Below are positions 1,457 through 15,424 of a stretch of 64,000 nucleotides of DNA, in pieces. The translations under genes were made by a program, and so were the position numbers. Where the stretch lies: assembly GCF_000496075.1 (NCBI RefSeq), contig NZ_AWXZ01000040.1, positions 248,001 to 312,000 of the forward strand, in the 5' to 3' direction. Positions within the stretch are counted from its first letter, which is position 1, and every line of letters starts with the position of its first letter. The notes beneath the pieces were generated by a model. It worked only from the letters and a program-made list of their open reading frames with translations. It was not told the DNA's origin and searched no databases. Source of the DNA: Lutibaculum baratangense AMV1. GTDB lineage: Bacteria > Pseudomonadota > Alphaproteobacteria > Rhizobiales > Tepidamorphaceae.

Positions 1457-1560
1457 CGTGGCTGATCGAGGTGGTGGGCAGGGGCCGGCGCGACCATCGC
1501 GCCGTGTTCCGAGAGTTTGCCGAGCACGTGGCGGAGTTCGTGGCGCGGAGGCGGGGATGA
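1453..1560 (+). CDS. Possible 35-residue micro-gene between gene 3.5 and protease
   Basis: The frame MTWLIEVVGRG... has 35 residues and ends in VARRRG. It is joined on both sides by ATGA overlaps: its ATG lies in the stop of the upstream gene, and its stop TGA overlaps the ATG of the protease at 1557. A GAGAGGG run at 1445-1451 could serve as ribosome binding site. The peptide is basic and amphipathic, with no family recognised. Without it the protease would start about 100 bases after the previous stop, which would be unusual in this tightly coupled operon, so translation is plausible but unproven. Confidence 0.4.
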   Translation: MTWLIEVVGRGRRDHRAVFREFAEHVAEFVARRRG

Positions 1561-2132
1561 GCGGCGAGGGCGTCGAACGCGCGGCGGCGGATGCCCTGGC
1601 GCGCGAGACGAAGCGGGCGCCGGTCGCGCTCGAGGAGGTGACGGAGGACGGCACGTTCGAGGGCTATGCGAGCCTGTTCGGCAAGGCCGACCTGTCGGGC
1701 GACGTGATCGAGCCCGGCGCCTTCGCGGCGAGCCTGAGGAAGCGGGGGCCTTCGCGCATCAGGATGCTGTGGCAGCACGAGCCTTCCGAGCCGATCGGCG
1801 TGTGGATTTCGATCGCGGAGGACCGCCGCGGCCTGAAGGTCGCGGGGCGGCTGACGCCGGAGGTCATGCGCGCCCGCGAGGTCCTGGCGCTGATGCGCGA
1901 GGGCGGCCTCGACGGGCTGTCGATCGGCTTCCGCACGATCCGCGCCAGGCGCGACCGGCGGACGGGCCTGAGGCATCTCCTCGAGGTCGACCTCTGGGAG
2001 ATCTCGGTGGTGACCTTCCCGATGCTCGACGAGGCGCGGGTGGGCCAGGTGAAGCGCTCGCCCTGGGCCCGCGGCCCCGGCGACGAGGCGGCGATCAGAC
2101 GTGCCGCGGCGGCGCTGCGGCGGGCGATGTGA
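1557..2132 (+). CDS. Prohead protease, HK97 family (GTA gene 4-like)
   Basis: A 191-residue protein when started at ATG 1557, which overlaps the upstream stop. The frame stays open to 1422 but the upstream part lacks family similarity. Peptidase U35 features are visible: GYASLFGKADLSGDVIEPGA near residues 36-55, the catalytic His region MLWQHEPSEPIGVW, and the Ser nucleophile region LDGLSIGF. The enzyme trims the N-terminal delta domain of the capsid protein during head maturation. It sits directly before the capsid gene, as in HK97 and GTAs. Confidence 0.93.
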   Translation: MSGEGVERAAADALARETKRAPVALEEVTEDGTFEGYASLFGKADLSGDVIEPGAFAASLRKRGPSRIRMLWQHEPSEPIGVWISIAEDRRGLKVAGRLTPEVMRAREVLALMREGGLDGLSIGFRTIRARRDRRTGLRHLLEVDLWEISVVTFPMLDEARVGQVKRSPWARGPGDEAAIRRAAAALRRAM

Positions 2133-2167
2133 CGGACGTTTTCCTTCATGACGAGAGGATCTTGAGG

Positions 2168-3433
2168 ATGGGCATGACGAACGGGCTCGCGCCGGAGATC
2201 AAGGCGGCGGGCGGGGCCGGCAGGGGCGAGATCGGCGAGGCGTTCGACGATTTCCTGAGGGCCTTCGAGGCCTTCAAGGAGACGAACGACGAGCGGCTCG
2301 GCCAGATCGAGACGCGCATGTCGGCCGACGTGGTGACGGTCGAGAAGATGGAGCGCATCAACCGGGCGCTCGACGAGCACCAGAGGGTGGTCGACGGGCT
2401 GGTGCTGAAGGCGAAGCGGCCGGCGCTTCAGGGCGAGGGGCGCGACGTCTCGCAGGCGAGCCTGCAGCACAAGGCGGCCTTCGAGGCCTATGTCAGGCGC
2501 GGCGCCGACGGCGAGCTCGCGCGGCTCGAGGCGAAGGCGATGTCGGTCGCCTCGAACCCGGACGGCGGCTATCTCGTGCCGGAGGAGACGGAGGCCGAGA
2601 TCGGCCGGCTCCTGTCGCAGGCCTCGCCGATCCGGGCCATCGCCGACGTGAGGCAGATGAGCGCCTCGACCTACAGGAAGCCGTTCTCGACGACGGGCTT
2701 CCAGTCGGGCTGGGTCGGCGAGACGGCGAGCCGGCCGCAGACGACGACGCCGACGCTCGACGAACTGAGCTTCCCGGCGATGGAGCTCTACGCCATGCCG
2801 GCGGCGACGCAGACGCTGCTCGACGACAGTGCCGTCGACCTCGACCGCTGGATCGCCGAGGAGGTGCAGACGGCCTTCGCGGAACAGGAAGGCACGGCTT
2901 TCGTGACCGGCGACGGCGCGAACAAGCCGACCGGCTTCCTCTCCTACGACACGGCGGCGGAAGGCTCCTGGGCCTGGGGGAAGATCGGCCATGTCGCCAC
3001 CGGGGCGGCGGGCGCCTTCCCGGCGTCGAACCCCTCGGACAGGCTGATCGACCTGATCTACGCGCTGAAGTCGGGCTACCGGCAGAACGCGCATTTCGTG
3101 ATGAACCGGAAGACGCAAGGGGCGATCCGCAAGTTCAAGGACGGCGACGGCAACTATATCTGGCAGCCGGCGGCGACGGCGGGCGGCACGGCGAGTCTGA
3201 TGGGCTTTCCCGTAACGGAAGCCGAGGACATGCCGGATATCGGCGCGGACGAGACGGCGATCGCCTTCGGCGATTTCCGCCGGGGCTACCTGATCGTCGA
3301 CCGGCTGGGCGTCAGGATCCTGCGCGATCCGTATTCGGCGAAGCCCTACGTGCTGTTCTACGCGACGAAGCGCGTGGCCGGCGGCGTGCAGGACTTCGAC
3401 GCGATCAAGCTGATGAAGTTCGCGGCAAGCTGA
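2168..3433 (+). CDS. Major capsid protein, HK97 fold (GTA gene 5-like)
   Basis: The start at ATG 2168 gives 421 residues and has GAGAGGA at 2153-2159 as ribosome binding site; a second ATG follows at 2174. The frame is open far upstream but only as a shadow of the protease gene. Residues 1 to about 115 are a charged, helical delta/scaffold domain. The mature shell domain then starts near DGGYLVPEE, a hallmark of Caudovirales capsids, and ends with VGGVQDFDAIKLMKF-type strands. Cleavage by the upstream protease would fall just before DGGYLVPEE. Confidence 0.95.
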   Translation: MGMTNGLAPEIKAAGGAGRGEIGEAFDDFLRAFEAFKETNDERLGQIETRMSADVVTVEKMERINRALDEHQRVVDGLVLKAKRPALQGEGRDVSQASLQHKAAFEAYVRRGADGELARLEAKAMSVASNPDGGYLVPEETEAEIGRLLSQASPIRAIADVRQMSASTYRKPFSTTGFQSGWVGETASRPQTTTPTLDELSFPAMELYAMPAATQTLLDDSAVDLDRWIAEEVQTAFAEQEGTAFVTGDGANKPTGFLSYDTAAEGSWAWGKIGHVATGAAGAFPASNPSDRLIDLIYALKSGYRQNAHFVMNRKTQGAIRKFKDGDGNYIWQPAATAGGTASLMGFPVTEAEDMPDIGADETAIAFGDFRRGYLIVDRLGVRILRDPYSAKPYVLFYATKRVAGGVQDFDAIKLMKFAAS

Positions 3434-3459
3434 GGCCGACAGCGAAGATGCGAAAAGCG

Positions 3460-3487
3460 GGCCGCGGGTGGTAGACTGCCCGCGGCC
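3460..3487 (+). terminator. Perfect 9-bp stem-loop after the capsid gene
   Basis: GGCCGCGGG (3460-3468) pairs with CCCGCGGCC (3479-3487) around a 10-base loop. No U-run follows, so it is not a classical intrinsic terminator. It could protect the 3' end of capsid mRNA or cause pausing. It lies 27 bases after the capsid stop. Confidence 0.45.
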
Positions 3488-3541
3488 TGTGCGGGGCGAT
3501 CCAGGGCGAAACGAAGAGCACTCTCGAACAGTCCATCTGCG

Positions 3542-3570
3542 TTGACATCTGTTAACAGAAATACCATCTT
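3542..3570 (+). promoter_or_regulatory. Candidate promoter with perfect 12-bp palindrome before the toxin-antitoxin-like pair
   Basis: TTGACA at 3542-3547 is a perfect sigma-70 -35 box. The palindrome TCTGTTAACAGA (3548-3559) follows immediately. A weak -10 (CATCTT, 3565-3570) lies at 17-bp spacing. The segment is clearly more AT-rich than the surrounding phage genes. The palindrome is placed where an autorepressor would act, which suits the HTH protein encoded by the second gene of the pair. Confidence 0.5.
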
Positions 3571-3581
3571 CAGGGCATGCG

Positions 3582-3827
3582 ATGAATAGACCGCGCCATC
3601 CGGACAAGGATGTCGAGGAGGCCGTCAGGTACGCCGAATCGCGTGGATGGACGTGGCGCAAGATGGGCCATTGGGGCCGACTGTTCTGCGCGCATGCCGA
3701 ACGCGACGGGTGCCAGATCGGGGTGAACGGCACGCCTCGTAACGGCGGCGCCCACGCCAGGCAGATTCGTCGAGCCGTCGATCGATGCCCCCACGACGAG
3801 AACGGGTCGGAAGATGAGAACGTATGA
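3582..3827 (+). CDS. HicA-like small protein, putative toxin partner
   Basis: An 81-residue basic protein. The central part has a layout reminiscent of HicA-type mRNA interferases: AESRGWTWRKMGHWG carries a Gly-His after a basic strand, then strands and TPRNGGAHARQIRRAVDRC as a final helix. The resemblance is in pattern and size only, and the family call is inference. The gene overlaps the next one by 14 bases, as toxin-antitoxin genes commonly do. It sits between capsid and head-tail connector genes, where the Rhodobacter GTA has nothing, and base composition looks less GC-rich than its neighbours, suggesting later acquisition. Confidence 0.5.
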   Translation: MNRPRHPDKDVEEAVRYAESRGWTWRKMGHWGRLFCAHAERDGCQIGVNGTPRNGGAHARQIRRAVDRCPHDENGSEDENV

Positions 3828-4347
3828 GTTTTCCATCATCGCGTCGGGTCTGGATCCGAGCGACGAGCAGTTCGAAGCCCGCTTCTACGATGCTGGTTGC
3901 GACGATGCTCTCGTCTCGTTCCAGAGGGGGCGCATCATCGTCGACTTCGCCCGCGAGGCTTCCTCGATCGAGGAAGCGATCTCCTCGGCCATCGAAAATG
4001 TCCTTGCGGCCGGCGCGACGGTCGAGCGCGTGGAGCCCGACCCTCTGGTCAGCCTGACGGAGATCGCCTCGCGCACCGGGCTGACGAGAGCCGCAGTGAC
4101 GCAGTATGCCAAGGGGCAGCGCGCCAGCGGTTTCCCGGGCCCGGTGGCTCGCGTGACCTCGGGGAGCCCGCTCTGGGACTGGGTTACCGTGTCCAGGTGG
4201 CTCTATTCGCAGAAGAAGTTGAGCCGAGACGAGGTGATCGAGGCCCAAGTGGTCAAGGCCGTCAATGACGCTCTCGGCACTGGCGGCCTCGCGGACTTGA
4301 GAAAGAGCCTGAAAGTGCGTGCCCGCGAATGTGAGGCGGCCCTCTAG
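3814..4347 (+). CDS. Helix-turn-helix DNA-binding protein, putative antitoxin/autoregulator
   Basis: A 177-residue protein. Residues 1 to about 65 (YEFSIIASGLDPSDEQFEAR...) look like a small alpha/beta domain. Residues about 68-125 contain an excisionase/MerR-like HTH (SLTEIASRTGLTRAAVTQYA), followed by a wing with W-D-W-V. I recall proteins of this architecture next to HicA-like small proteins, usually annotated only as DNA-binding. The start overlaps the upstream gene by 14 bases. Binding to the palindrome at 3548-3559 is a natural hypothesis. The pair could be a moron/addiction module or a regulator inside the GTA cluster. Confidence 0.55.
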   Translation: MRTYEFSIIASGLDPSDEQFEARFYDAGCDDALVSFQRGRIIVDFAREASSIEEAISSAIENVLAAGATVERVEPDPLVSLTEIASRTGLTRAAVTQYAKGQRASGFPGPVARVTSGSPLWDWVTVSRWLYSQKKLSRDEVIEAQVVKAVNDALGTGGLADLRKSLKVRARECEAAL

Positions 4348-4577
4348 CGGCCAAGCTTGGACGCCAGTCTCCATGACGATTCCGGGCTCCGCCTCCAGCG
4401 GGGTTCTTCGTTGGGCCCACGTTTCCGAGGCGAAACACCGAGCGCGTGGTGAAACTGGGCTGCGCGCTCGCCGAGCGCGGTCGAGCCGCGTCGGGGTCGA
4501 CGAAGACCACGTAGGATCCGGCGCGGCACAGGCCGCGTAGGACATCACGGTTCTCCTGAAACCTCCCTGCCTGCACT
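4348..4577. other. Non-coding spacer downstream of the HTH gene
   Basis: About 230 bases with no convincing gene on either strand. Short open frames exist but none has a ribosome binding site or recognisable family. A perfect 7-bp hairpin, CGCGCTC-GCC-GAGCGCG (4463-4479), is present without a U-run. The spacer may be leftover DNA from the event that placed the two-gene cassette between capsid and connector genes. Confidence 0.4.
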
Positions 4578-4611
4578 GGCCCCGTCGATCCTCGGCGGGG
4601 CCTTTTCGTTT
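4578..4611 (+). terminator. Intrinsic terminator directly before the head-tail connector gene
   Basis: GGCCCCG (4578-4584) pairs with CGGGGCC (4596-4602), followed by TTTTCGTTT. This is a textbook hairpin plus U-run. It ends only 15 bases before the ATG of the connector gene. It would end transcripts of the cassette at 3582-4347, and also any transcript coming from the capsid gene unless there is read-through or antitermination. Confidence 0.7.
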
Positions 4612-4625
4612 TCCGGAGCCATCTC

Positions 4626-5192
4626 ATGACGCTCTTTCTCGTGAACCCGCCTGCGGCGGAGCCGGTCTCGCTCGCCGAGGCGAAGGCGTTTCTCAAGGTC
4701 GAGACGGACGACGAGGACGTGCTGATCGGCACGCTGATCGCGGCGGCGCGGCTTCACGTCGAGGCGGCGACCAGGCGGGTGCTCATGAGCCAGGGGTGGC
4801 GCCTGGTGCTCGACGGCTGGCCGCCGCGGCGCAGGATCGAGATCCCGCTCTCGCCCGTCCGCAGCGTCGACCAGATCATGGTCTACGACGACGCGGGCGA
4901 CCCGACGGTGCTGCCGGAGACGGAGTGGCTGGCGGACGCGGTGTCGTTTCCGGCGCGGATCTATGTGCGCGAGGCGATGGAGCCGACTGCGGCCTTCAAC
5001 GGCATCGAGATCGACCTGACGGCCGGCTACGGCCCCGATCCGGCCGACGTGCCGGAGGGCCTGCGGCTGGCGATCCTGCAGCTCGTGGCGCAGTGGCACG
5101 AGACCCGCGAGCCGGTGGCGTTCGGGGCGGTCAGCGAGGTGCCGGAGGCGGTGCGGGCGCTGACGGCGCCCTACCGGGCGCTGGCGCTGTGA
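4626..5192 (+). CDS. Head-tail connector protein (GTA gene 6-like)
   Basis: A 188-residue member of the phage gp6-like/DUF3199 connector group. It opens with EPVSLAEAKAFLKVETDDED, the characteristic N-terminal helix of these proteins (a hallmark L-A-E-A-K-x-x-L-x-V with acidic residues), followed by LIAAARLHVEAATRR. It forms the ring joining portal and tail. A CGGAG motif at 4614-4618 serves as ribosome binding site. The stop overlaps the following GTG start. Confidence 0.9.
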   Translation: MTLFLVNPPAAEPVSLAEAKAFLKVETDDEDVLIGTLIAAARLHVEAATRRVLMSQGWRLVLDGWPPRRRIEIPLSPVRSVDQIMVYDDAGDPTVLPETEWLADAVSFPARIYVREAMEPTAAFNGIEIDLTAGYGPDPADVPEGLRLAILQLVAQWHETREPVAFGAVSEVPEAVRALTAPYRALAL

Positions 5193-5512
5193 GCGGCATC
5201 GGACGCTTGAGGCACCGGGTGCGGCTGGAGGCGCCGGTCACGGCGGATGACGGCTCGGGCGGGACGACGGCGAGCTGGAACCTCGTGACGACGCTGTGGG
5301 CGCGGGTCGAGCCGCTGTCGGCGGTCGAGCGGCTGACGGCGGAGCGATTGGAAGCCGCCGTGACGCACCGCGTGACGATCCGGCACCGGGCGGGCGTGAC
5401 GCACCGGATGCGCTTCGTGCTCGGCACGCGGGTGCTGGAGATCCGGGGCATCCGCGATCTCGAGGAGCGGCACCGGTATCTCGAACTCACCTGCGAGGAG
5501 GTTTCGCCATGA
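5189..5512 (+). CDS. Head-tail adaptor / head closure protein (GTA gene 7-like)
   Basis: A 107-residue protein with the GTG start at 5189 overlapping the previous stop. The SPP1 gp16-type head-tail joining pattern is visible: RLRHRVRLEAPVTADDGSGG at the N-terminus, then WARVEPLSAVE and VTIRHRAGVTHRMRF. The size is typical for the family (about 105-115 residues). It would seal the connector and provide the tail docking surface. It is translationally coupled on both sides. Confidence 0.9.
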   Translation: MSGIGRLRHRVRLEAPVTADDGSGGTTASWNLVTTLWARVEPLSAVERLTAERLEAAVTHRVTIRHRAGVTHRMRFVLGTRVLEIRGIRDLEERHRYLELTCEEVSP

Positions 5513-5910
5513 GTGCGGCGCTTGCGCTTCAGACGGCGGTGATCGCGACGCTCCGTGCGGATGCCGTGCTCGCGGGGCTCGTGGGCGACGCGGTGCATGA
5601 CGGGGCGCCGCAGAACGCGGGCCTTCCCCATGTCGCGCTCGGCGACTTCACGACGCTGCCCTGGGACACGGCGAGCGAGGACGGGGAGGAGCACCGCGCG
5701 ACGCTTCTCTCCTGGTCGCGCAAAGGCGGGCGGCGCGAGATCCACGAGATCAATGCCGCGCTGATCGCCGCGCTCCACGGGGCGGATCTCGCCGTGGCGG
5801 GGCACGCGCTCGTCGACCTCAGGGTGACCGGGGCCGACGCGCGCCGCGAGGCCGACGGGAAGACCTGGCGCGGCCGGGTGCGGCTCGTGGCGTTCACGGA
5901 GCCCGCCTGA
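5509..5910 (+). CDS. DUF3168 tail completion protein (GTA gene 8-like)
   Basis: A 133-residue protein starting at ATG 5509 in an ATGA overlap. DUF3168 features are visible: ALQTAVIATLRADAVLAGLV at the N-terminus, then DGAPQNAGLPHVALGDF and a C-terminal TWRGRVRLVAFTEPA. The family corresponds to tail terminator/completion proteins of siphophages and to gene 8 of the Rhodobacter GTA. It is followed by a repeat-bearing spacer before the major tail protein. Confidence 0.88.
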   Translation: MSAALALQTAVIATLRADAVLAGLVGDAVHDGAPQNAGLPHVALGDFTTLPWDTASEDGEEHRATLLSWSRKGGRREIHEINAALIAALHGADLAVAGHALVDLRVTGADARREADGKTWRGRVRLVAFTEPA

Positions 5911-5950
5911 GCGGGGCCGGAACCCGGCGATCAGGGGCCTATCCCCGTGT

Positions 5951-5990
5951 GGCCCCTGGGCCCCGGGTCAAGCCCGGGGCACGCCGAGGG
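5951..5990. repeat. GC-rich palindromic repeat, copy 1
   Basis: CCCCGGG (5961-5967), TCAAG, CCCGGGG (5973-5979) form a perfect inverted repeat. The flanks GGCCCCTGGG and CACGCCGAGGG recur at copy 3 (13,521 region). The unit lies in the spacer between the DUF3168 and major tail genes. It is of the small intergenic palindrome (REP-like) class common in alphaproteobacterial chromosomes. Confidence 0.65.
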
Positions 5991-6033
5991 GGCGGCGGAC
6001 AGGCACATCCAACCAACCCATGAGGACATCGAC

Positions 6034-6447
6034 ATGACGGCTCAACGGGGGCGGGACCTTCTGTTGAAGGTCGACGCGGACGGGGACGGCGGCTTCGTGA
6101 CGGTCGCGGGCTTGAGGACGCGGACGCTCGTCTTCAACGCCCAGACGATCGACATCACCGACATCGCCTCGGCGGGGCAGTGGCGGGAGCTTCTCGACGG
6201 CGGCGGCATCAGGCGCTGCGCCATCTCGGGCGCCGGCATCTTCAAGGACCAGGCGTCGGACGCCGCGATCCGCCAGTGCTTCTTCGACGGCACGATCCGC
6301 GACTGGCAGGTGACGATCCCCGATTTCGGGCGGATCGAGGGGCCTTTCCAGATCGCGAGCCTCGAGTTCGGCGCGCGCCACGACGCTGAGCTGACCTTCG
6401 ACATCGCGCTCGAATCGGCCGGCGCGATGGGCTTCACCGCGATCTGA
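6034..6447 (+). CDS. Major tail tube protein, TP901-1 family (GTA gene 9-like)
   Basis: A 137-residue protein. The ATG at 6034 has TGAGGA (6021-6026) as ribosome binding site. It opens with TAQRGRDLLLKVDADGDGGF, typical of the TP901-1/GTA tail tube family, and contains VFNAQTIDITDIASAGQWRE and the conserved FDGTIRDWQVTIPDFG segment. It polymerises to form the tail tube. Its position after DUF3168 and before the small tail chaperone-like genes matches the GTA order. Confidence 0.93.
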   Translation: MTAQRGRDLLLKVDADGDGGFVTVAGLRTRTLVFNAQTIDITDIASAGQWRELLDGGGIRRCAISGAGIFKDQASDAAIRQCFFDGTIRDWQVTIPDFGRIEGPFQIASLEFGARHDAELTFDIALESAGAMGFTAI

Positions 6448-6457
6448 GGAGGACGAG

Positions 6458-6775
6458 ATGGCGAACCGGCTGCGGGGCGAGGTCGAGGCGGTGCTCGACG
6501 GGGAGAGGCGGACGCTGTGCCTGACGCTCGGCGCGCTGGCGGAGCTCGAGACGGCGCTGAAGGCGGACGATCTCGGCGCCCTGGCGCGGCGCTTCGGCGA
6601 GGGGCGGCTGAAGGCGCGCGAGGCGATCGCCGTGATCGGCGCGGGCTTGCGCGGCGCAGGCCAGGCAGTCGGCGACGACGAGGTGGCGGCGATGCGGATC
6701 GACGGCGGGGCGGCGGGCTTCGTGCGCCTCGTCGGGCAACTGCTCGAGGCGACCTTCGAGGGCGGCGAGGCATGA
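6458..6775 (+). CDS. GTA gene 10-like tail assembly protein
   Basis: A 105-residue protein of the gene transfer agent family (GTA_gp10): MANRLRGEVEAVLDGERRT, then LCLTLGALAELETAL and REAIAVIGAGLRGAG. In siphophages the genes between tail tube and tape measure are tail assembly chaperones, and this one and the next probably play that part. GAGGA at 6448-6452 lies just before the start. Its stop overlaps the next ATG. Confidence 0.85.
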   Translation: MANRLRGEVEAVLDGERRTLCLTLGALAELETALKADDLGALARRFGEGRLKAREAIAVIGAGLRGAGQAVGDDEVAAMRIDGGAAGFVRLVGQLLEATFEGGEA

Positions 6776-6966
6776 GGGGCGACGTCGAGCGGCTCGCCGG
6801 CCTCGCCGTGGCGGCGCTGCGGCTGCCGGCGCGCGAGGTGTGGGCGATGACGCCGCGCGAGGTGGCGATGGCGCTTCGAGCGCTGCGGCCGCAGGAGGCG
6901 GGGCCGCCGGGCCGGAGCGAGCTTCAGGCGCTGATGGCGCGGTTTCCCGATGGAGGCGAGGCATGA
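6772..6966 (+). CDS. Small tail assembly chaperone (rcc01693/DUF2376-like)
   Basis: A 64-residue protein starting at ATG 6772 in an ATGA overlap; a longer reading is only the shadow of gene 10. It contains LPAREVWAMTPREVAMALRA, the signature of the small protein found between gene 10 and the tape measure in GTAs and related phages, followed by a short helical end. It is probably the second tail assembly chaperone. The stop overlaps the tape measure ATG. Confidence 0.8.
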   Translation: MRGDVERLAGLAVAALRLPAREVWAMTPREVAMALRALRPQEAGPPGRSELQALMARFPDGGEA

Positions 6967-7523
6967 ACCCGTTCGAGGACGACGAGCTGACCGTGCCGGT
7001 GCGCGCGGATCTGAGCGCGTTCGAGGCCGATCTCGTGGCGGCGACCAGGCTCGCGGACCGCTTCGGCACGGCGATCGGCGGCGCCTTCGAGGGGGCGATC
7101 CTGAAAGGCAAGGCGTTCGGCGACGTGCTGCGGGAGCTGGCGCTGAGGCTGTCGCGGCTGGCGCTCGACGCGGCGCTGAAACCGCTGGAGCAGTCGCTGT
7201 CGGCGGGGATCCTGGGGCTCGTCGGCGGGGCGCTGCCCTTCGCGAGGGGCGGGGCGTTCAGCGGTGGCGAGGTGGTGAGCCAGCCGACGCTGTTCGGCCT
7301 GTCGGGCGGACGGCGCGGCGTGATGGGCGAGGCGGGGCCTGAAGCCGTGCTGCCGCTGGCGCGCGGGGCGGACGGCCGGCTCGGCGTGCAGGCGGGCGCG
7401 GGTGGGGCGGTGACGATCAACTTCAACGTGACGAGCCCGGATGCCGGCTCGTTCCGTGCGGCCGAGGGCCAGATCCAGGCGCTGCTGGCGCGGGCTGCGG
7501 CGCGCGGGCGGCGGAACCTCTAG
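6963..7523 (+). CDS. Tail tape measure protein, short GTA type (gene 11-like)
   Basis: A 186-residue protein starting at ATG 6963. Phage tape measures usually exceed 600 residues, and this very short form is typical of Rhodobacter-like GTAs with short tails. An N-terminal helical part (LSAFEADLVAATRLADRFG) precedes a hydrophobic Gly/Leu-rich middle (ILGLVGGALPFARGG). The C-terminus then carries GVMGEAGPEAVLPL, a motif widely conserved in tape measure C-termini. Its length would set a short tail tube. Confidence 0.88.
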   Translation: MNPFEDDELTVPVRADLSAFEADLVAATRLADRFGTAIGGAFEGAILKGKAFGDVLRELALRLSRLALDAALKPLEQSLSAGILGLVGGALPFARGGAFSGGEVVSQPTLFGLSGGRRGVMGEAGPEAVLPLARGADGRLGVQAGAGGAVTINFNVTSPDAGSFRAAEGQIQALLARAAARGRRNL

Positions 7524-7535
7524 GGGGGCGGCGGC

Positions 7536-8162
7536 ATGACATTTCACGAGGTGCGATTTCCGCCTGCCATCTCCCGCGGCGCATCTGGCGGGCCGGAGCG
7601 GCGGACGGACGTGGTGACGCTGGGGTCGGGCCACGAGGAGCGCAACATGCGCTGGGCGGATTCGCGGCGGCGCTACAATGCGGGCTACGGGCTGAAGGGC
7701 GTCGACGACCTGCACGCCGTCATCGCCTTCTTCGAGGAGAGGCGCGGGCGCGGGCACGGCTTCCGGTTCAAGGACTGGGCCGACTTCAAGTCGTGCGCGC
7801 CGCGGGGGACGCCCGCCGCGACCGACCAGGTGCTGGGGGAGGGCGACGACGGCACCACGGAATTCAAGCTCGTGAAGACCTATGGCGCGGGCCTTGCGCC
7901 GTGGGTGCGGACGATCTCGAAGCCCGTTTCCGGCACGGTGGTCGTGGCGCTCGACGGGGTGGCGCAGGGCTCCGGCTGGTCGGTCGACGAGACGACGGGG
8001 CTCGTGACCTTCGAGACGGCGCCGGACGAGGGCGTGGCGGTGAGCGCGGGCTTCGAGTTCGACGTGCCGGTGCGCTTCGACACCGACCGGATCGAGGTGG
8101 TGCTGCCGCATTTCGAGCACGGGGAGATCCCGTCGATCCCGCTCGTGGAGATCAGGCCATGA
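7536..8162 (+). CDS. DUF2460 distal tail protein (GTA gene 12-like)
   Basis: A 208-residue TIGR02217 family protein (distal tail ring). Visible family features are FHEVRFPPAISRGASGGPER, the RRRYNAGYGLKG segment, a DLHAVIAFFEERRGRGHGFR motif and a C-terminal PHFEHGEIPSIPLVEIRP. It would form the hub between tail tube and baseplate. GGGGGCGGCGG precedes the ATG. Its stop overlaps the next gene by four bases. Confidence 0.93.
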   Translation: MTFHEVRFPPAISRGASGGPERRTDVVTLGSGHEERNMRWADSRRRYNAGYGLKGVDDLHAVIAFFEERRGRGHGFRFKDWADFKSCAPRGTPAATDQVLGEGDDGTTEFKLVKTYGAGLAPWVRTISKPVSGTVVVALDGVAQGSGWSVDETTGLVTFETAPDEGVAVSAGFEFDVPVRFDTDRIEVVLPHFEHGEIPSIPLVEIRP

Positions 8163-9037
8163 AGACGCTGTCGCCGGAGCTCGCCGCGCATCTGGCGGGC
8201 GGCGTGACGACGCTCTGCTGGTGCTGGAAGCTGACGCGCACGGACGGCGTCACGATGGGCTTCACCGACCACGACCGGCCGGTGGTCTTCGGCGGCGTGA
8301 GCTACGAGGCGGAATCCGGGTTCACGGCGAGCGAGGTGCAGTCGAGCCTGGGGCTGTCGGTCGACAATCTCGACGTGGCCGGCGCCTTGTCCTCTGACCG
8401 GATCGAGGAGGGCGACATCCGCGGCGGGCTCTATGACGGGGCCGACGTCGAGATCTGGCGGGTGAACTGGGCCGCGCCCGAGCAGCGCGTGCTGATGCGC
8501 AAGGGCTCGATCGGCGAGATCCGCCGCTCGGCGCTCGCCTTCACCGCCGAGATGCGCGGCCTCGCGCACCGGCTCGAGCAGGCGCAGGGGCGGACCTTCC
8601 AGAGGATGTGCGACGCCGATCTCGGCGACGGCAGGTGCAAGGCGGCGGTGTCGGCCGCCGCGGGAACGGTCCTGTCGTCGAGCGACGACAGGCTCCTGCG
8701 CTGCGAGGGGCTTGCGGCCTTCGACGGCGGCCGGTTCCGGCACGGGCGGCTCGTCTGGACAAGCGGGGCGAATGCGGGGCTCCAGGCCGAGGTCCGGGCG
8801 CACCGGGCCGGGACGGTCGCGGTGCTCGAACTGTGGGAGCGGACGGCGCATGGGGTCGAGCCGGGCGATGCGTTCGACGTCTTCCCCGGCTGCGACAAGA
8901 CGATGGCGACCTGCCGGGACCGGTTCGACAACCTGATGAACTTCCGCGGCTTCCCGCACATGCCGGGCAACGACCGCGCCTTCGGCTATGTCGCCGGCGA
9001 GAGCGGAGAGCACGATGGCGGCTCGTTCTTCAACTGA
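8159..9037 (+). CDS. DUF2163 baseplate hub protein (GTA gene 13-like)
   Basis: A 292-residue TIGR02218 protein starting at ATG 8159 in an ATGA overlap. The N-terminal DUF2163 domain covers about residues 1-165 (TLCWCWKLTRTDGVTMGFTD, YEAESGFTASEVQSSLG). The C-terminal BR0599-like domain covers about 195-280, including CDKTMATC and NFRGFPHMPGND. In the R. capsulatus GTA this protein is part of the iron-sulfur-containing hub, and several Cys residues remain here (CDADLGDGRC, CDKTMATC). A repeat-bearing spacer follows. Confidence 0.93.
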   Translation: MKTLSPELAAHLAGGVTTLCWCWKLTRTDGVTMGFTDHDRPVVFGGVSYEAESGFTASEVQSSLGLSVDNLDVAGALSSDRIEEGDIRGGLYDGADVEIWRVNWAAPEQRVLMRKGSIGEIRRSALAFTAEMRGLAHRLEQAQGRTFQRMCDADLGDGRCKAAVSAAAGTVLSSSDDRLLRCEGLAAFDGGRFRHGRLVWTSGANAGLQAEVRAHRAGTVAVLELWERTAHGVEPGDAFDVFPGCDKTMATCRDRFDNLMNFRGFPHMPGNDRAFGYVAGESGEHDGGSFFN

Positions 9038-9079
9038 GGCGCCGGGAGAAGCCGGCGCTGCGGCGGGCGGCCCCTGGAT

Positions 9080-9096
9080 CCCGGGTCAAGCCCGGG
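9080..9096. repeat. GC-rich palindromic repeat, copy 2
   Basis: CCCGGG (9080-9085), TCAAG, CCCGGG (9091-9096), preceded by GGCCCCTGGAT. The core is the same as copy 1. It lies between the DUF2163 and NlpC/P60 genes. It keeps an upstream reading frame of the NlpC gene open, which makes an artificial N-terminal extension possible. Confidence 0.6.
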
Positions 9097-9116
9097 AAAC
9101 GGGCAGTGCGTGCTGG

Positions 9117-9548
9117 GTGGCGCCGACGCGGGCCGCGCTGGTCGCGGAGGCGCGGGGGTGGATCGGCACGCCGTATCACCACCAGGCGTCGCGCCGGGGC
9201 GCGGGGTGCGACTGCTTCGGCCTCGTGCGCGGGGTGTGGCGGGCCTTCTATGGGCCGGAGCCGGTGGCGGTGCCGGCCTACACGAAGGACTGGGGCGACG
9301 TGACGGGGGTCGAGACGATGCTCGATAGCGCGCGGGCGCATCTCGTCGAACGGGCGGTCTCCGAGCGGGAGCCGGGCGACGTGCTCGTCTTCCGCATGCG
9401 GCGGGGGATCGCGAAGCATGCCGGCATCCTCACGGGGGAAGCGACCTTCGTCCACGCGACGGAGCGGGCCGTCGTGGCGGAGGTGCCGCTCGATCCCTTC
9501 TGGCGCGGCCGGATCGCGGCCGTCTTCTCCTTTCCCGGCGTGGAGTGA
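9117..9548 (+). CDS. NlpC/P60 family peptidase of the tail hub (GTA gene 14-like)
   Basis: A 143-residue cysteine peptidase. Catalytic Cys lies in GAGCDCFGLVRG, and the His region is AKHAGIL. Such peptidases cut peptide cross-links of peptidoglycan when the tail penetrates the cell. Start choice: the frame is open from ATG 9015, which lies inside the previous gene, but that extension crosses the palindromic repeat and reads as low-complexity sequence. GTG 9117 gives the usual family length and an N-terminus like known homologues. The ribosome binding site at this GTG is weak. Confidence 0.88.
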   Translation: MAPTRAALVAEARGWIGTPYHHQASRRGAGCDCFGLVRGVWRAFYGPEPVAVPAYTKDWGDVTGVETMLDSARAHLVERAVSEREPGDVLVFRMRRGIAKHAGILTGEATFVHATERAVVAEVPLDPFWRGRIAAVFSFPGVE

Positions 9549-9554
9549 CCCGAC

Positions 9555-12500
9555 ATGGCGACGCTCGTCCTCTCCTCCGTCGGCGGCGCGATCGGCACGG
9601 CGCTCGCGGGACCCTTCGGCGGCCTCGTCGGCCGGGCGCTCGGCGGGCTCGCGGGCTATGCCGTCGACCGCACGATCCTGATGCCGGGCGGCGGCACGCA
9701 GACGGTCGCCGGGCACCGGCTGACGAACGTGCAGATCACGACCTCGACCGAAGGGGCGGCGGTGAACCGGGTGATCGGCCGGGCGCGGATCGGCGGGCAG
9801 ATGATCTGGGCGACCAGGTTCGAGGAGGAGGTGGTCGTCGAGGAGCAGGAGGTCGGCGGCGGCAAGGGCCTCGGCGGCGGCGGCACGACGGTCAGGACCG
9901 AGACCTATCTCTATTACGCGAACTTCGCCGTCGCCTTCTGCGAGGGGCCGGTGGCGCGGATCGGGCGCATCTGGGCCGACGGCAAGGAGGTCGACCAGGA
10001 GCTCGTGACGATCCGCCGGCACCTGGGGACGGAGGACCAGGCGCCGGACTCGCTGATCGTCGCGAAGGAGGGGGCGGGCGAGGTGCCTTCCTATCGCGGC
10101 ATCGCCTATCTCGTCTTCGAGCGGCTGCCGCTCGAGGATTACGGCAACCGTATCCCGATGGTGACGGCGGAGATCTTCCGGCCCGTCGGGCGGCTCGAGA
10201 GCCGGATCCGCGGCGTCTCGATCATCCCCGGCGCGACGGAGTTCGGCTACTCGACGTCGATCATCACGAAGGTGTTCGCGCAGGGCGAGAGCCGCATCGA
10301 GAACCGCCACACGAAGCTGCCGGGATCCTCGTTCGAGGCCTCGCTCGACATGCTCGAGGCGCTGGCGCCGAACGTCGAGACGGTGACGCTCGTCGTCGCC
10401 TGGTTCGGCACGGACTTGAGGTGCGGGGCTTGCGAGATCGTGCCGAAGGTCGAGACCTGGCTGAAGGTGACGCGCTCGGAGGGCTCGATCCTCTATCCCT
10501 GGCTCGTCGGCGGCCAGCTCCGGCTCTTCACGCCGGTCGTGTCGAGCCATGACGGCACGCCCGCCTATGGCGGCAGCCCGAGCGATATCACGGTGGTGCA
10601 GGCGATAAAGGAGCTGAAAGCCCGCGGCTACCGCGTGCTCGTCTATCCCTTCGTGATGATGGACGTGCCCGCCGGCAACACCCGGCCGGACCCCTATTCC
10701 GACGAGGCGGCGGCGGTGGGGCAGCCGGCCTATCCCTGGCGCGGCCGCATCACCTGCTCGCCGGCGCCGGGCTTCGCCGGATCGCCCGACAGGACGGCGG
10801 ATGCCGCGAGCCAGGTCGCAGCCTTCATGGGCAGCGCGACGGCCGGCCAGTTCACCTGGCTCGGGGTCACCGTCCTCTATGGCGGCGGCGAGAAGAGCTA
10901 CAGCCGCTTCATCCTGCACATGGCGACGCTCGCGAAGGCGGGCGGGGCGGACGCCTTCGCGATCGGCTCGGAGATGGTGGGGATGACGACGGTGCGCTCG
11001 GGCGCTTCCACCTATCCCTTCGTCGAGGCGCTCAGAGGTCTGGCGGCGGAGGCGCGGACGATCCTCGGGCCCGGCGTGAAGATCGGCTACGCGGCGGACT
11101 GGTCGGAGTATCACAGCCACCGGCCGGGCGACGGCTCGGGCGACGTCTTCTTCCACCTCGATCCGCTCTGGGCCGACGACAACATCGACTTCGTCGGGAT
11201 CGACAACTACCTGCCGCTCGCCGACTGGCGCGACGGCACGGAGCATCTCGACTTCGATCCGGACGGGCCGACGACGATCTACGACCGCGACTATCTCCGC
11301 GCGAACGTCGAGGGCGGCGAGTATTACGACTGGTTCTATGCGAGCCCGGCCGACCGGGAGGCGCAGGCGCGGACCTCCATCGCCGACACCGCGCATGGCG
11401 AGCACTGGGTCTTCCGCAACAAGGATATCCGCAACTGGTGGGCGAACGCGCACCACGACCGGCCGGGTGGCGCGAGGCAGGCGGGCGCGACGGCCTGGGT
11501 GCCGCAATCGAAGCCCGTCTGGTTCACGGAGGTCGGGTGCCCGGCGGCCGACAAGGGCGCGAACCAGCCGAACGTCTTCTGGGACCCGAAGTCCTCCGAG
11601 AGCTTCCTGCCGCACTTCTCGTCCGGCGCGCGCGACGACGCGATGCAGCGGGCCTATCTCGAGGCGATGATCGGCTACTGGGAGGAGGCGGAGAACAATC
11701 CGCTCTCGACCGTCTACGGCGGGCCGATGATCGATCCCGGCAACATCGCCGTCTGGACGTGGGACGCGCGGGTGCCGCCCTCCTTCCCGCTCGACGACGC
11801 GCAATGGGCGGACGGGCCGAACTGGACGCTCGGCCACTGGATCTCGGGAAGGCTCGGCGCGGCGCCCGCGGCGGAGGCGGTCGAGGAGATCGCGCGCATG
11901 TACGGCGTCGAGGGCGACGTCGCGCTCGAGCCGATGGCGGGCGTCGTCGACGGGGTGGTGCTCGACCAGGTGATGAGCGCGCGGGCGGCGCTCGAGGCGC
12001 TGGAGCCCGCCTATCTCTTCGCCGCCGTCGAGAGCGAGGGGAAGATCCGCGTCCGCTCCCGCGAGGGCGCCGCGCCCCGGGTCGTGCTCGAGGCTGGGGA
12101 TCTCGTGGAAGAGGGCGAGGCCGAGCCCTGGCGCAAGGTCCGGGCGCAGGAGACGGAGCTGCCGGCGGTCGTGAAGATCGCCTACGGCGAGTTCGCGAGC
12201 GACGACCAGCCGGGCGGGGTCGAGGCGCGGCGGACGACCGGCGGCTCCCGCGCCGTGCGCGAGGTGAGCCTGCCCTGCATGCTGGGCGAGGACCGGGCGC
12301 GGGCGATCGCCGAGACGCTCCTGCGCGAGGCCTGGGTCGGCCGCGAGGGGCTGACGATGACGCTGCCGCCCTCGCTGATCGCGCTCGATCCGGGCGACGT
12401 GATCCGCTTCGCGGAGGCCGGCAACGAGACCTGGCGCATCGCCGGGATCACCGACGGGCTCGGGCGGCGGGCCGAGCTCGTGCGGACGCAAGCGGGCCTC

Positions 12501-13493
12501 TCGGGCGGGATCGCCGCGCCGGCGCGCTCGGGCGCGAGGACGGACCAGTCGGTGCTCGGGCCGCCGGCGCTCGTCTTCCTCGACGGGCCTCTGCTGCGCG
12601 ACGGCGACGACGACTGGCGCGGCTATGTCGGGGCCTATGCCTCGCCCTGGGCGGGCGGCGTCGCGCTCTACCGCTCGCCGGAAGCAGAGGGCTTCGCGCT
12701 CGACAGCGTGCTCGGCGCGCCGGTGCGGCTCGGCGAGCTCGCCGCCGACTTCCACAGCGGCCCCGCCTGGCGATGGGACCGGGTGAACGCGCTCCAGGTG
12801 ACGCTGACCTCCGGCATCCTCACCTCGGCGAGCGAGATCCAGGTGCTGAACGGGGCGAACGCGATTGCCGTCGAAAATGCGGACGGCGAGTGGGAGGTGG
12901 TGCAGTTCCGCGATGCGGAACTCATTGCGCCCCGCACCTACCGGCTGACGAGCCTCCTGCGCGGTCAGCGGGGCACCGAGCACGCGATGCGGGACCCGGT
13001 CGCGGCGGCGGCGCGGGTCGTCGTGCTCGACGGCTCGCTCAGCCAGCCGCGCATTCCCCCGGCGCTCGTCGGCCTGCCTCTGAACTGGCGGGCCGGGCCG
13101 GCGCGGCGGCCGGTGACGGACACGAGCTATCTGCCGCTCGAGCACACGATCACGGGCAAGGCGCGGCGGCCGCTCGCGCCGGTGCATCTGAAGGCCAGGC
13201 GAGGGCCGGGCGGGGACATCACGCTCTCCTGGGTGCGGCGGACACGGCGCGGCGGCGACAGCTGGGACAACGCCGAGGTGCCGCTCGGCGAGGAGGCGGA
13301 GGCCTACGAGGTCGGGGTCCTCGACGGCGGGGCGGTGGTGCGGACGCTTCACGCCGCGGCGCCGGCGGCCGTCTACACGGCGGCGCAGCAGGCGGCGGAC
13401 TTCGGCGCGCCGGTCGACACGCTCGACTGGCGGGTCGTCCAGACGAACGCGGCTGGGCCCGGCATCGCCGCCAGCACCACTTCGGTTCCCTGA
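9555..13493 (+). CDS. Giant tail tip / host specificity protein with GTA TIM-barrel domain (gene 15-like)
   Basis: A 1312-residue protein, normal for GTA gene 15. The N-terminus (ATLVLSSVGGAIGTALAGPF) is a Gly-rich hydrophobic segment seen in homologues. A glycoside-hydrolase-like TIM barrel lies at about residues 420-730 (DNIDFVGIDNYLPLADW; VWFTEVGCPAADKGANQPN, with Glu as likely catalytic acid). A phage tail J-type region follows at about 790-960, and the C-terminus is a fibronectin-like part (KARRGPGGDITLSWVRRTRR). It builds the central hub and receptor-contacting tip and may cleave surface glycans. Confidence 0.95.
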   Translation: MATLVLSSVGGAIGTALAGPFGGLVGRALGGLAGYAVDRTILMPGGGTQTVAGHRLTNVQITTSTEGAAVNRVIGRARIGGQMIWATRFEEEVVVEEQEVGGGKGLGGGGTTVRTETYLYYANFAVAFCEGPVARIGRIWADGKEVDQELVTIRRHLGTEDQAPDSLIVAKEGAGEVPSYRGIAYLVFERLPLEDYGNRIPMVTAEIFRPVGRLESRIRGVSIIPGATEFGYSTSIITKVFAQGESRIENRHTKLPGSSFEASLDMLEALAPNVETVTLVVAWFGTDLRCGACEIVPKVETWLKVTRSEGSILYPWLVGGQLRLFTPVVSSHDGTPAYGGSPSDITVVQAIKELKARGYRVLVYPFVMMDVPAGNTRPDPYSDEAAAVGQPAYPWRGRITCSPAPGFAGSPDRTADAASQVAAFMGSATAGQFTWLGVTVLYGGGEKSYSRFILHMATLAKAGGADAFAIGSEMVGMTTVRSGASTYPFVEALRGLAAEARTILGPGVKIGYAADWSEYHSHRPGDGSGDVFFHLDPLWADDNIDFVGIDNYLPLADWRDGTEHLDFDPDGPTTIYDRDYLRANVEGGEYYDWFYASPADREAQARTSIADTAHGEHWVFRNKDIRNWWANAHHDRPGGARQAGATAWVPQSKPVWFTEVGCPAADKGANQPNVFWDPKSSESFLPHFSSGARDDAMQRAYLEAMIGYWEEAENNPLSTVYGGPMIDPGNIAVWTWDARVPPSFPLDDAQWADGPNWTLGHWISGRLGAAPAAEAVEEIARMYGVEGDVALEPMAGVVDGVVLDQVMSARAALEALEPAYLFAAVESEGKIRVRSREGAAPRVVLEAGDLVEEGEAEPWRKVRAQETELPAVVKIAYGEFASDDQPGGVEARRTTGGSRAVREVSLPCMLGEDRARAIAETLLREAWVGREGLTMTLPPSLIALDPGDVIRFAEAGNETWRIAGITDGLGRRAELVRTQAGLSGGIAAPARSGARTDQSVLGPPALVFLDGPLLRDGDDDWRGYVGAYASPWAGGVALYRSPEAEGFALDSVLGAPVRLGELAADFHSGPAWRWDRVNALQVTLTSGILTSASEIQVLNGANAIAVENADGEWEVVQFRDAELIAPRTYRLTSLLRGQRGTEHAMRDPVAAAARVVVLDGSLSQPRIPPALVGLPLNWRAGPARRPVTDTSYLPLEHTITGKARRPLAPVHLKARRGPGGDITLSWVRRTRRGGDSWDNAEVPLGEEAEAYEVGVLDGGAVVRTLHAAAPAAVYTAAQQAADFGAPVDTLDWRVVQTNAAGPGIAASTTSVP

Positions 13494-13520
13494 GGCTCGT
13501 CGATAGGCAAGGCCCGTCGG

Positions 13521-13560
13521 GCGGCCCCTGGGTCCCGGCTCGGGGGCCGGGACACGCCGA
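13521..13560. repeat. GC-rich palindromic repeat, copy 3
   Basis: GTCCCGGC (13532-13539) pairs with GCCGGGAC (13546-13553). The flanks GGCCCCTGGG and ACACGCCGAGG match those of copy 1, so this is a diverged member of the same family. It lies in the spacer between the giant tail protein and the DUF2793 gene. Confidence 0.6.
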
Positions 13561-13595
13561 GGTTGGGGCCGAGGCGGTGCCATGGGCACGGCGTG

Positions 13596-13614
13596 CCCCG
13601 GACCTGATCCGGGG
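13596..13614. repeat. GC-rich palindromic repeat, copy 4
   Basis: CCCCGGA (13596-13602), CCTGA, TCCGGGG (13608-13614). It lies about 40 bases after copy 3. The pair sits head to tail in the same spacer, as REP-like elements often do. Confidence 0.55.
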
Positions 13615-13656
13615 CCCAGAGCGGCTTGCGCCGAATTCCCGAGAAGGAAGGATGAA

Positions 13657-15318
13657 ATGGCGGACACACCCAATCTCGGCCTGCCGGAGATCGCGGCGAG
13701 CCAGGCGCAGAAGCACGTGACGCACAACGAGGCGCTGCGGATCCTCGACGCGGTTGTGCAGCTCGCCGTCCTCGACCGCGACCTCGCCGAGCCGCCGGCC
13801 GCGCCGGATGACGGCGACCGCTACATCGTGGGGCCGAGCGCGACGGGAGCGTGGGCGGGGCACGAGAACGAGGTCGCCATAGTCGTGGACGGCGCGTGGT
13901 CGTTCGTCCAGCCGCGCCCCGGATGGGCCGCCTTCGTCGTCGACGAGGCACAGCTTCTCTACTGGACCGGCTCGCAGTGGACGGTGTTCGGCGAGGTCAT
14001 CTCCGTCCTGCAGAACCTGACCCGTCTCGGCATCGGCACGACGGCCGACGCGACGAACCCGTTCGCGGCGAAGCTGAACAAGGCGCTCTGGACGGCGCTG
14101 ACATCAAGCGAGGGCGGGGACGGGAGCTTGCGCTACACGCTCAACAAGGAGGGTGCGGGCGACGTCCTCTCCTTCCTCCTCCAGTCGAACTGGTCGGGCC
14201 GCGCAGAGCTCGGCCTGATCGGCGACGACGACCTGTCGCTGAAGGTCTCGGGCGACGGGGCGGCGTGGCGGGAGGCGCTGCGGGTGAACCGCCACTCCGG
14301 CCGGCTGCGGCTCGGCAAGCGAGCTTACGTCCGCAGCCCGAACGTGCCGCAGCGGCGGCACGTGACCTCGAGCGCCTGGGTCGCCTCGACGAGCGCCGCG
14401 GACAACAACTGGATCTCCGTGGCCTGGGCGGGCGACCTCGGACTCTTCTGCGCCGTCGCGATCACCGGCACCGGCAACCGGGTGATGACCTCGCCGGACG
14501 GCATCGCTTGGACGGCACGCACGAGCGCGGCCGACAACAACTGGACGTCGGTCGCGTGGTCGCCCGAGCTGCGCCTGTTCGCGGCGGTCGCGGCGAGCGG
14601 CACCGGCAACCGGGTGATGACCTCGCCGGACGGCGTGACCTGGACGATCCGGACGAGCGGCGCCGACAACGACTGGCAGTCCGTGTGCTGGTCGGCCGAG
14701 CGGGGCCTCTTCTGCGCCGTCGCCTCGTCGGGCAGCAGCCGGGTGATGACCTCGCAGGACGGCGTCAACTGGACGGCCCACGCGACGCCCGGCCTCAATC
14801 GCGCCTGGTACAGCGTGTGCTGGGCAGCCGACCTCGGGCTCTTCTGCTCGGTCGCCGCGAACGCCGTCTCCGACAACGTCATGACCTCGCCCGACGGCAT
14901 CAACTGGGCGCTGCACACGAACCCGACCGGCAACACGCTTCGGGCCGTGTGCTGGTCGCCGGAGCTCGGCCTGTTCGTCGCCGTCGCCATCGTCGGAACC
15001 GGTAACCGCGTGACCACGAGCCCCGACGGGGTGACGTGGACGGCGCGCACGAGCGCCGCCGACAACAACTGGCGCGCCGTCGCCTGGGCGCCGGAGATCG
15101 GCCTCTTCGCCGCCGTCTCCGACAGCGGCACAGGCAACCGGGTGATGACCTCGCCGGACGGCATCGCCTGGACGGCCCGGACGAGCGCCGCCGACAACGG
15201 CTGGTTCGGCCTCGCCTGGGCGGGCGAGCTCGGCCTCTTCTGCGCCGTCGGCCTCACCGGCACCGGCAACAGGGCGATGACCAGCGTCTCCGCCCACTCA
15301 TACCCCTACAGGAGCTGA
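13657..15318 (+). CDS. DUF2793 tail fibre-like protein with seven-repeat propeller domain
   Basis: A 553-residue protein. ATG 13657 is preceded by GAGAAGGAAGG. Residues 1 to about 110 are DUF2793 (MADTPNLGLPEIAASQAQKH, LLYWTGSQWTVFGE). A linker at about 115-235 contains KLNKALWTAL and LSLKVSGDGAAWREALRV. From about residue 237 seven tandem 41-44-residue repeats follow, with the theme SVAWAPELGLFAAVA then GTGNRVMTSPDGITWTART. Seven repeats rich in beta strands suggest a closed seven-bladed propeller, fit for binding sugars or proteins on a target cell. It lies directly after the tail tip gene, so a receptor-binding role is inferred. Confidence 0.85.
   Translation: MADTPNLGLPEIAASQAQKHVTHNEALRILDAVVQLAVLDRDLAEPPAAPDDGDRYIVGPSATGAWAGHENEVAIVVDGAWSFVQPRPGWAAFVVDEAQLLYWTGSQWTVFGEVISVLQNLTRLGIGTTADATNPFAAKLNKALWTALTSSEGGDGSLRYTLNKEGAGDVLSFLLQSNWSGRAELGLIGDDDLSLKVSGDGAAWREALRVNRHSGRLRLGKRAYVRSPNVPQRRHVTSSAWVASTSAADNNWISVAWAGDLGLFCAVAITGTGNRVMTSPDGIAWTARTSAADNNWTSVAWSPELRLFAAVAASGTGNRVMTSPDGVTWTIRTSGADNDWQSVCWSAERGLFCAVASSGSSRVMTSQDGVNWTAHATPGLNRAWYSVCWAADLGLFCSVAANAVSDNVMTSPDGINWALHTNPTGNTLRAVCWSPELGLFVAVAIVGTGNRVTTSPDGVTWTARTSAADNNWRAVAWAPEIGLFAAVSDSGTGNRVMTSPDGIAWTARTSAADNGWFGLAWAGELGLFCAVGLTGTGNRAMTSVSAHSYPYRS
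14362..15291 (+). repeat. Seven tandem about 132-bp coding repeats
   Basis: Each unit encodes a copy of a W-x-S-V-A/C-W-x-x-x-L-G-L-F-x-A-V-A core followed by GTGNRVMTSPDG and WTARTSAADNNW. Units 1, 2, 6 and 7 are nearly identical, and units 3-5 are diverged (for example TPGLNRAWYSVCWAADLGLF). DNA-level similarity between outer units is high enough to allow recombination and copy-number change. Confidence 0.85.
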
Positions 15319-15370
15319 TGCGGGCGAGCCGGCCGGGGCCGGCCGAGGACGCACGAGGCAGGACCACACA

Positions 15371-15401
15371 GCCCGCCGGCATCCCGCCCGGCGGGCTTTT
15401 T
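15371..15401 (+). terminator. Intrinsic terminator between tail fibre and endolysin genes
   Basis: GCCCGCCGG (15371-15379) pairs with CCGGCGGGC (15388-15396), followed by TTTTT. It lies 52 bases after the DUF2793 stop and 23 bases before the endolysin ATG. Lysis gene expression would need read-through or a separate promoter. Confidence 0.75.
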
Positions 15402-15424
15402 CATGTCTTCAAAGGGAGATCCCG

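Follow-up and report, generated by a model that had tools for sequence, protein, structure and literature searches.

How does a pair of small genes come to be lodged between capsid and connector in a gene transfer agent (GTA), a domesticated virus-like element, and what might keep it there? The question arises in Lutibaculum baratangense AMV1, in a 64,000-nucleotide stretch of contig NZ_AWXZ01000040.1 (hereafter the window). An RcGTA-type structural cluster is present there in intact form, the start of the large terminase gene lying just upstream. The terminase-to-gp15 gene order is that of a single RcGTA-type structural cluster; terL, portal, protease, capsid, connector and the genes through gp15 are all open frames, and relatives share their order. 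The persistence of GTAs is itself unexplained, as they need cell lysis and do not favour their own genes (PMC11841831). In Caulobacter, GTA activation and release are under HTH repressors together with an immune-like system (PMC13236601, PMC10688885). No report of TA modules inside RcGTA-type clusters was found in the literature searched, a body from which most subscription papers were out of reach.

The two genes, here named M06A and M06B, overlap by 14 bp, and this overlap is kept in most alphaproteobacterial copies. An earlier note on this DNA had described a toxin-antitoxin-like cassette of two overlapping genes between capsid and connector, with lower GC content and a -35 box of its own; the open reading frames, the base composition and a TTGACA at 3542-3547 agree with that description. 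The features of the junction are collected in Table 1.

Table 1. Features of the capsid-connector junction and its flanks (window coordinates)
Feature	Position	Strand	Basis
GTA major capsid gene (flank)	2168..3433	+	PF05065 (Phage_capsid) E 2.6e-98; GTA gene order
Strong hairpin after the capsid stop, without U-tract	3457..3490	+	15-bp stem, -34.3 kcal/mol, z -3.96
Operator GTTGACA-TC-TGTTAAC, 16-bp inverted repeat over the -35 box; proposed M06B binding site	3541..3556	+	Unique in window, conserved in relatives
Promoter-like TTGACA-17 bp-CATCTT; short leader inferred	3542..3570	+	Sequence; spacing conserved in relatives
M06A, 81 aa, toxin-like; predicted HicA-like alpha-beta-beta-beta-alpha fold, invariant His30	3582..3827	+	Six PADLOC PDC-M06A models, best 3.7e-21; AF2 pLDDT 82; 6g26, 6hpb
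M06B, 177 aa, antitoxin/repressor-like; predicted ferredoxin-like domain (1-75), winged HTH (about 77-134), two long C-terminal helices	3814..4347	+	PADLOC PDC-M06B model PDLC04388, 2e-27; PHROG 2620 3.3e-36; AF2 pLDDT 92; fold matches
Terminator-like hairpin followed by a T-rich tract, ahead of the connector gene; a feature ancestral to the GTA junction	4578..4612	+	Equivalents in clusters without the pair
GTA head-tail connector gene, gp6-like (flank)	4626..5192	+	PF05135 E 4.2e-12

Two side observations concern the cluster as a whole. The IMG/VR database carries the GTA at window positions 1557-16210 as viral contig UViG_2568526534_000003 (14,827 bp), the part read beginning at the protease gene; this listing is likely a misclassification. 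The same genome also holds a second, diverged HK97-type capsid gene (G000:C23:3590-4636, 36% identity), possibly that of a prophage.

The pair bears the marks of a newcomer. Its GC content is 64% against 69-73% in the GTA genes, and GC3 is 74% in M06A and 81% in M06B against 94-96%, as expected for a recent arrival. M06B is absent from all seven other genomes of the family examined, and the capsid-connector gaps of relatives, mostly short or non-coding, do not hold the pair. A survey of related GTA clusters for the pair at the same position, suggested by the earlier note, gave no second case: no other sampled genome of the order has it exactly between capsid and connector. From the absence in seven family genomes, the pair-less junctions of relatives and the lower GC3, the best explanation appears to be a recent acquisition by this lineage, inserted into a non-coding junction. 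An ancestral GTA gene was considered and rejected, as the pair is missing from family members and from the same gaps of relatives. The intrinsic terminator that had been attributed to the cassette is a real hairpin with a T-rich tract (4578-4602, followed by TTTTCGTTTT; z -3.1), but many GTA clusters without the pair have a similar hairpin just before the connector gene, with a nearly identical stem in locus L010, so that it belongs to the GTA junction and lies outside the module.

Both proteins match the uncharacterised candidate defence pair PDC-M06A/B of PADLOC, with the M06B gene adjacent to M06A, downstream of it and overlapping it. The PDC-M06 models also match copies resident in phages and in GTAs. 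PHROG 5923 and PHROG 2620 span the phage homologues of M06A and M06B, a homologous pair is carried by the phage-plasmids SSU5 and Cyrano, and IMG/VR contigs hold further homologues, in some cases probably within late structural genes. A literature search for PDC-M06 returned nothing, and no experiments on any member of the family were found in the literature.

The small protein had been called HicA-like, and its predicted fold is suggestive of this. The AF2 model of M06A suggests that the dsRBD-like fold of HicA is its nearest: in the comparison against HicA that had been proposed, HicA chains ranked first and second among solved structures, 6g26 with Z 4.7 and 6hpb with Z 4.3 (Foldseek E 1.0). 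The sequence profile does not bear the name out. No Pfam family matches M06A at E up to 10, so the HicA profile PF07927 is not reached; HicA and HicB families are absent from the Pfam and NCBIfam matches of both proteins; a profile-profile hhalign of M06A against 11 HicA sequences gave a non-significant probability of 1.7% (E 0.029); and sequence searches against solved structures returned chance hits only. HicA membership by profile was accordingly rejected, and any homology with HicA would be weak and at fold level only, with Z under 5, a Foldseek E of 1.0 and a non-significant hhalign result. His30 is invariant across 21 M06A sequences, its putative equivalence to the catalytic histidine in the G-x-H hairpin of HicA resting on a non-significant alignment.

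The partner had been called an HTH protein, in agreement with the winged HTH predicted at about residues 77-134, which resembles MerR and phage small-terminase domains in its fold matches. For residues 1-75, ferredoxin-like folds dominate the best matches and HicB is not listed, so that the HicB fold, a partial RNase H, is not recognisable in M06B. That the pair is a conventional HicAB system is very unlikely: the best solved folds for M06A are indeed HicA, and annotators of Cyrano named the homologues HicA toxin and putative antitoxin HicB, but the missing family matches, the hhalign result and the ferredoxin-like look of the M06B N-terminus speak against it.

The pair has its own control region. 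The earlier note had drawn attention to a perfect 12-bp palindrome, TCTGTTAACAGA, which is present at 3548-3559 but is not significant alone, since about 16 such palindromes are expected by arithmetic in 64 kb; it overlaps, off-register, the conserved operator. The latter, the inverted repeat at 3541-3556, is the sole site of its kind in the 64 kb at up to 2 mismatches. Its consensus, GTTGACA-NN-TGTYAAC, recurs ahead of M06A in relatives, mostly 23-28 bp before the start codon: 28 of 33 loci have it with no more than one mismatch, and it is also present in 16/16 further loci and in an enterobacterial phage. The -10 element CATCTT is weak, and a generic promoter scan made no call at this promoter. 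A search for a second operator, made across the rest of the window and across other GTA regions, found none. That the operator is conserved between such distant relatives, and that GTA regions have no similar site at other places, fits autorepression, and we infer that M06B autoregulates through the 3541-3556 repeat.

The same observations bear on the proposal that the module is a stress switch over particle production, with M06B repressing or timing GTA transcription. An HTH protein does sit inside the structural operon, and other HTH repressors (CdxB, RtrA/B) act on GTA activators in Caulobacter (PMC13236601, PMC10688885). As the 64 kb contain a single operator copy and the search of GTA regions turned up none at other places, however, control of GTA promoters by M06B is unsupported and was rejected, and the pair is absent from all other family members sampled; we regard such a role as very unlikely, and the suggested stress switch finds no support.

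PHROG 2620 is named as a phage excisionase or transcription regulator, and its match to M06B (E 3.3e-36) raises the question of whether M06B is such a protein with M06A as an accessory, and the two no TA pair. The resemblance of the winged HTH to MerR and small-terminase domains would suit this, but most copies have no neighbouring integrase, and the regular pairing with M06A, the short overlap and the operator favour two proteins acting together in one operon. This reading seems improbable.

The layout, two small overlapping genes behind a promoter-proximal palindromic operator, is that of a type II TA operon. Together with the HicA-type predicted fold and the purifying selection described below, it upholds the toxin-antitoxin-like character put forward earlier. 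The best explanation, which we consider fairly probable as a whole, is a self-contained TA-type operon of the PDC-M06 family recently inserted into the capsid-connector junction. In this operon the winged HTH of M06B would bind the 3541-3556 repeat and repress transcription, and M06A would be a small HicA-like, probably RNA-directed toxin kept inactive by M06B. If M06B were lost or overwhelmed, the promoter would be derepressed and M06A would arrest the cell. Read-through from the GTA could raise expression of the module. The most speculative step is a stabilising effect within a GTA cluster, where losing or replacing the segment that carries such a module would be penalised.

Close PDC-M06 relatives of the pair are strongly GTA-linked, which is the main new result. 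The sample of the order comprised 397 genomes, 264 of them with a GTA capsid (E up to 1e-60); M06B matches occur in 16 of the 397, fourteen with E below 1e-20. A copy was counted as linked when inside a GTA cluster or within 10 kb of one. Among strong copies in GTA-capsid genomes, 7/12 are linked with the window included, and 6/11 without it, where about 0.08 would be expected (binomial P about 9e-11; 5/10 and P 6e-9 with two congeners collapsed), whereas a set of 80 genomes from the same order, all bearing a GTA, has HicA linked in 2/45 hits and RES in 3/75 (Fisher P 3e-4 and 7e-5 against M06), all linkage P values being approximate, as they assume a fixed 35-kb target and independent hits. 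Besides the window site, linked copies occupy the portal-protease gap (genomes G081 and G145), positions 2.6 to 3.3 kb upstream of the terminase (G363, G023 and G047, Stappia sediminis) and a position 5 kb beyond gp15 (G235). A separate scan placed another 1.7 kb upstream of the terminase in Chelativorans sp. YIM 93263 (L042). In a second sample, 219 genomes of family f35, 4 of 16 further loci are linked, three at gp14-gp15 in genus g108 and one 0.7 kb upstream of the terminase in G924; this sample is not fully blind, the family having been picked for two linked cases and g108 being the genus of one. All 12 of 12 linked copies lie on the GTA strand. A decaying copy was seen in Stappia sediminis (L039:7603-9159), where M06A, next to the GTA, is interrupted and the neighbourhood also has a gene for a ParE toxin.

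These associations appear to have several origins. A tree of 41 M06B sequences requires six state changes to account for the linked copies, at least four of them forced by supported branches, and places copies from outside GTAs among the closest relatives of the window copy; M06-type modules thus seem to have entered GTA clusters several separate times, with at least four changes. In g108, M06AB of two members are 90-92% identical at 76-91% GTA identity and have apparently been co-inherited. A third member has at the same site an M06AB only 49-62% identical while its GTA genes are 75-92% identical, which points to a separate insertion or replacement. Where pairs of GTA-resident copies allowed an estimate, dN/dS is 0.05-0.30 for both genes, a signature of purifying selection in relatives residing in GTAs.

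GTA gaps receive other genes as well. Individual VapBC, HicBA and Xre-RES insertions occur, and trypsin-like, DUF2019 and GNAT proteins are found there too. That GTA clusters are a general TA hotspot was judged a weak proposition: among the families listed, the gaps of 60 further clusters gave 2 PIN and 1 PemK matches in 131 between-gene ORFs, with unrelated genes also present and trypsin-type proteases Pfam-confirmed in four ORFs. Several single loci may be listed. Trypsin-type-protease-like genes lie on the opposite strand in the capsid-connector gaps of L192, L195, L093 and L094, the gap that holds the pair in the window. In genus g39, an Xre-like/RES pair (L087:10179-11242 and L089) occupies the portal-protease gap, which in two congeners is the site of M06AB, and in G230 an HTH/RES pair (L140:10981-11883) lies between gp14 and gp15, where M06AB sits in g108. 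The portal-protease gap of G277 (L147:4531-5337) has a PIN-domain gene with a Phd/YefM-type antitoxin, on the strand opposite to the GTA. Between terminase and portal there is a DUF1902/HicA pair in G115 (L138:3076-3662), its HicA above the Pfam cut-off, and in Chelativorans sp. YIM 93263 (L042:11488-11754) a HicA-like gene with PF07927 at E 6e-4, below the cut-off.

What selection keeps the pair for can be read in two ways under the same TA mechanism. The first is an anti-phage (abortive infection) module or phage 'moron' that uses GTA junctions as a permissive, phage-like harbour, with no benefit to the GTA. PADLOC places the family among candidate defence systems, homologues reside in SSU5, Cyrano and the IMG/VR contigs, one copy lies directly downstream of cas3, and the gaps also house genes of unrelated kinds; yet GTA linkage is far above that of HicA or RES toxins in the same order, and every linked copy is on the GTA strand. 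We give this reading somewhat less than an even chance. The cas3 neighbour was observed in a Rhizobiaceae MAG (L045:4962-10238), where M06AB lies directly between cas3 upstream and a large downstream gene without a Pfam match, perhaps cse1.

The second reading is an addiction or guard family whose members enter GTA clusters again and again and help these clusters, which are costly and non-self-propagating, to stay in genomes. Retention is made more plausible by the repeated, independent, same-strand association, and repeated entry is a hint, short of proof, that the pair helps to maintain the cluster. Most M06AB copies elsewhere lie away from GTAs, many alone between housekeeping genes, so that the pair can persist without any GTA function; and as 11 of 13 sampled members of g39 do not have the pair, an addiction module would have been readily lost or never spread there. 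We consider a retention role rather unlikely, and the defence or moron reading at least as likely. On the best account, M06AB is a TA-type, autoregulated operon that has settled in GTA clusters time and again, and now and then in other loci of several genes, such as that beside cas3; the putative module may serve the GTA by addiction, the host by defence, or itself alone. If true, the guard reading would offer a selfish explanation for GTA persistence, and a TA-like family with several independent same-strand entries makes this one answer directly testable.

Among known systems, CreTA, which guards CRISPR-Cas (PMC9458426, PMC8501985), shares the idea of a toxin module protecting the costly multi-gene locus in which it lies, and one M06AB copy is itself beside cas3; CreTA, however, consists of an RNA toxin with CRISPR-guided repression, whereas M06AB encodes two proteins in an operon under an operator of its own, and its protection of a locus is hypothetical. 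LypABC/CdxB of the Caulobacter GTA (PMC13236601) is likewise an immune-type system tied to GTA biology, but it is tripartite and CARD-NLR-like, acts in host lysis and has a separate repressor, with no described resemblance to M06AB. Type II HicAB has the same arrangement of a small toxin-like gene first and a larger DNA-binding partner second, together with the predicted alpha-beta-beta-beta-alpha toxin fold and an invariant His after a conserved GW; M06AB differs in having no HicA or HicB profile match and, in M06B, a ferredoxin-like domain with a winged HTH in place of a recognisable HicB fold. PDC-M06 itself agrees in both genes, their order and their adjacency, and nothing checked excludes membership. 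To our knowledge, neither a GTA location nor a shared operator is part of the PADLOC definition, and this uncharacterised candidate defence family thus gains a defined operator, a predicted fold and a habitat.
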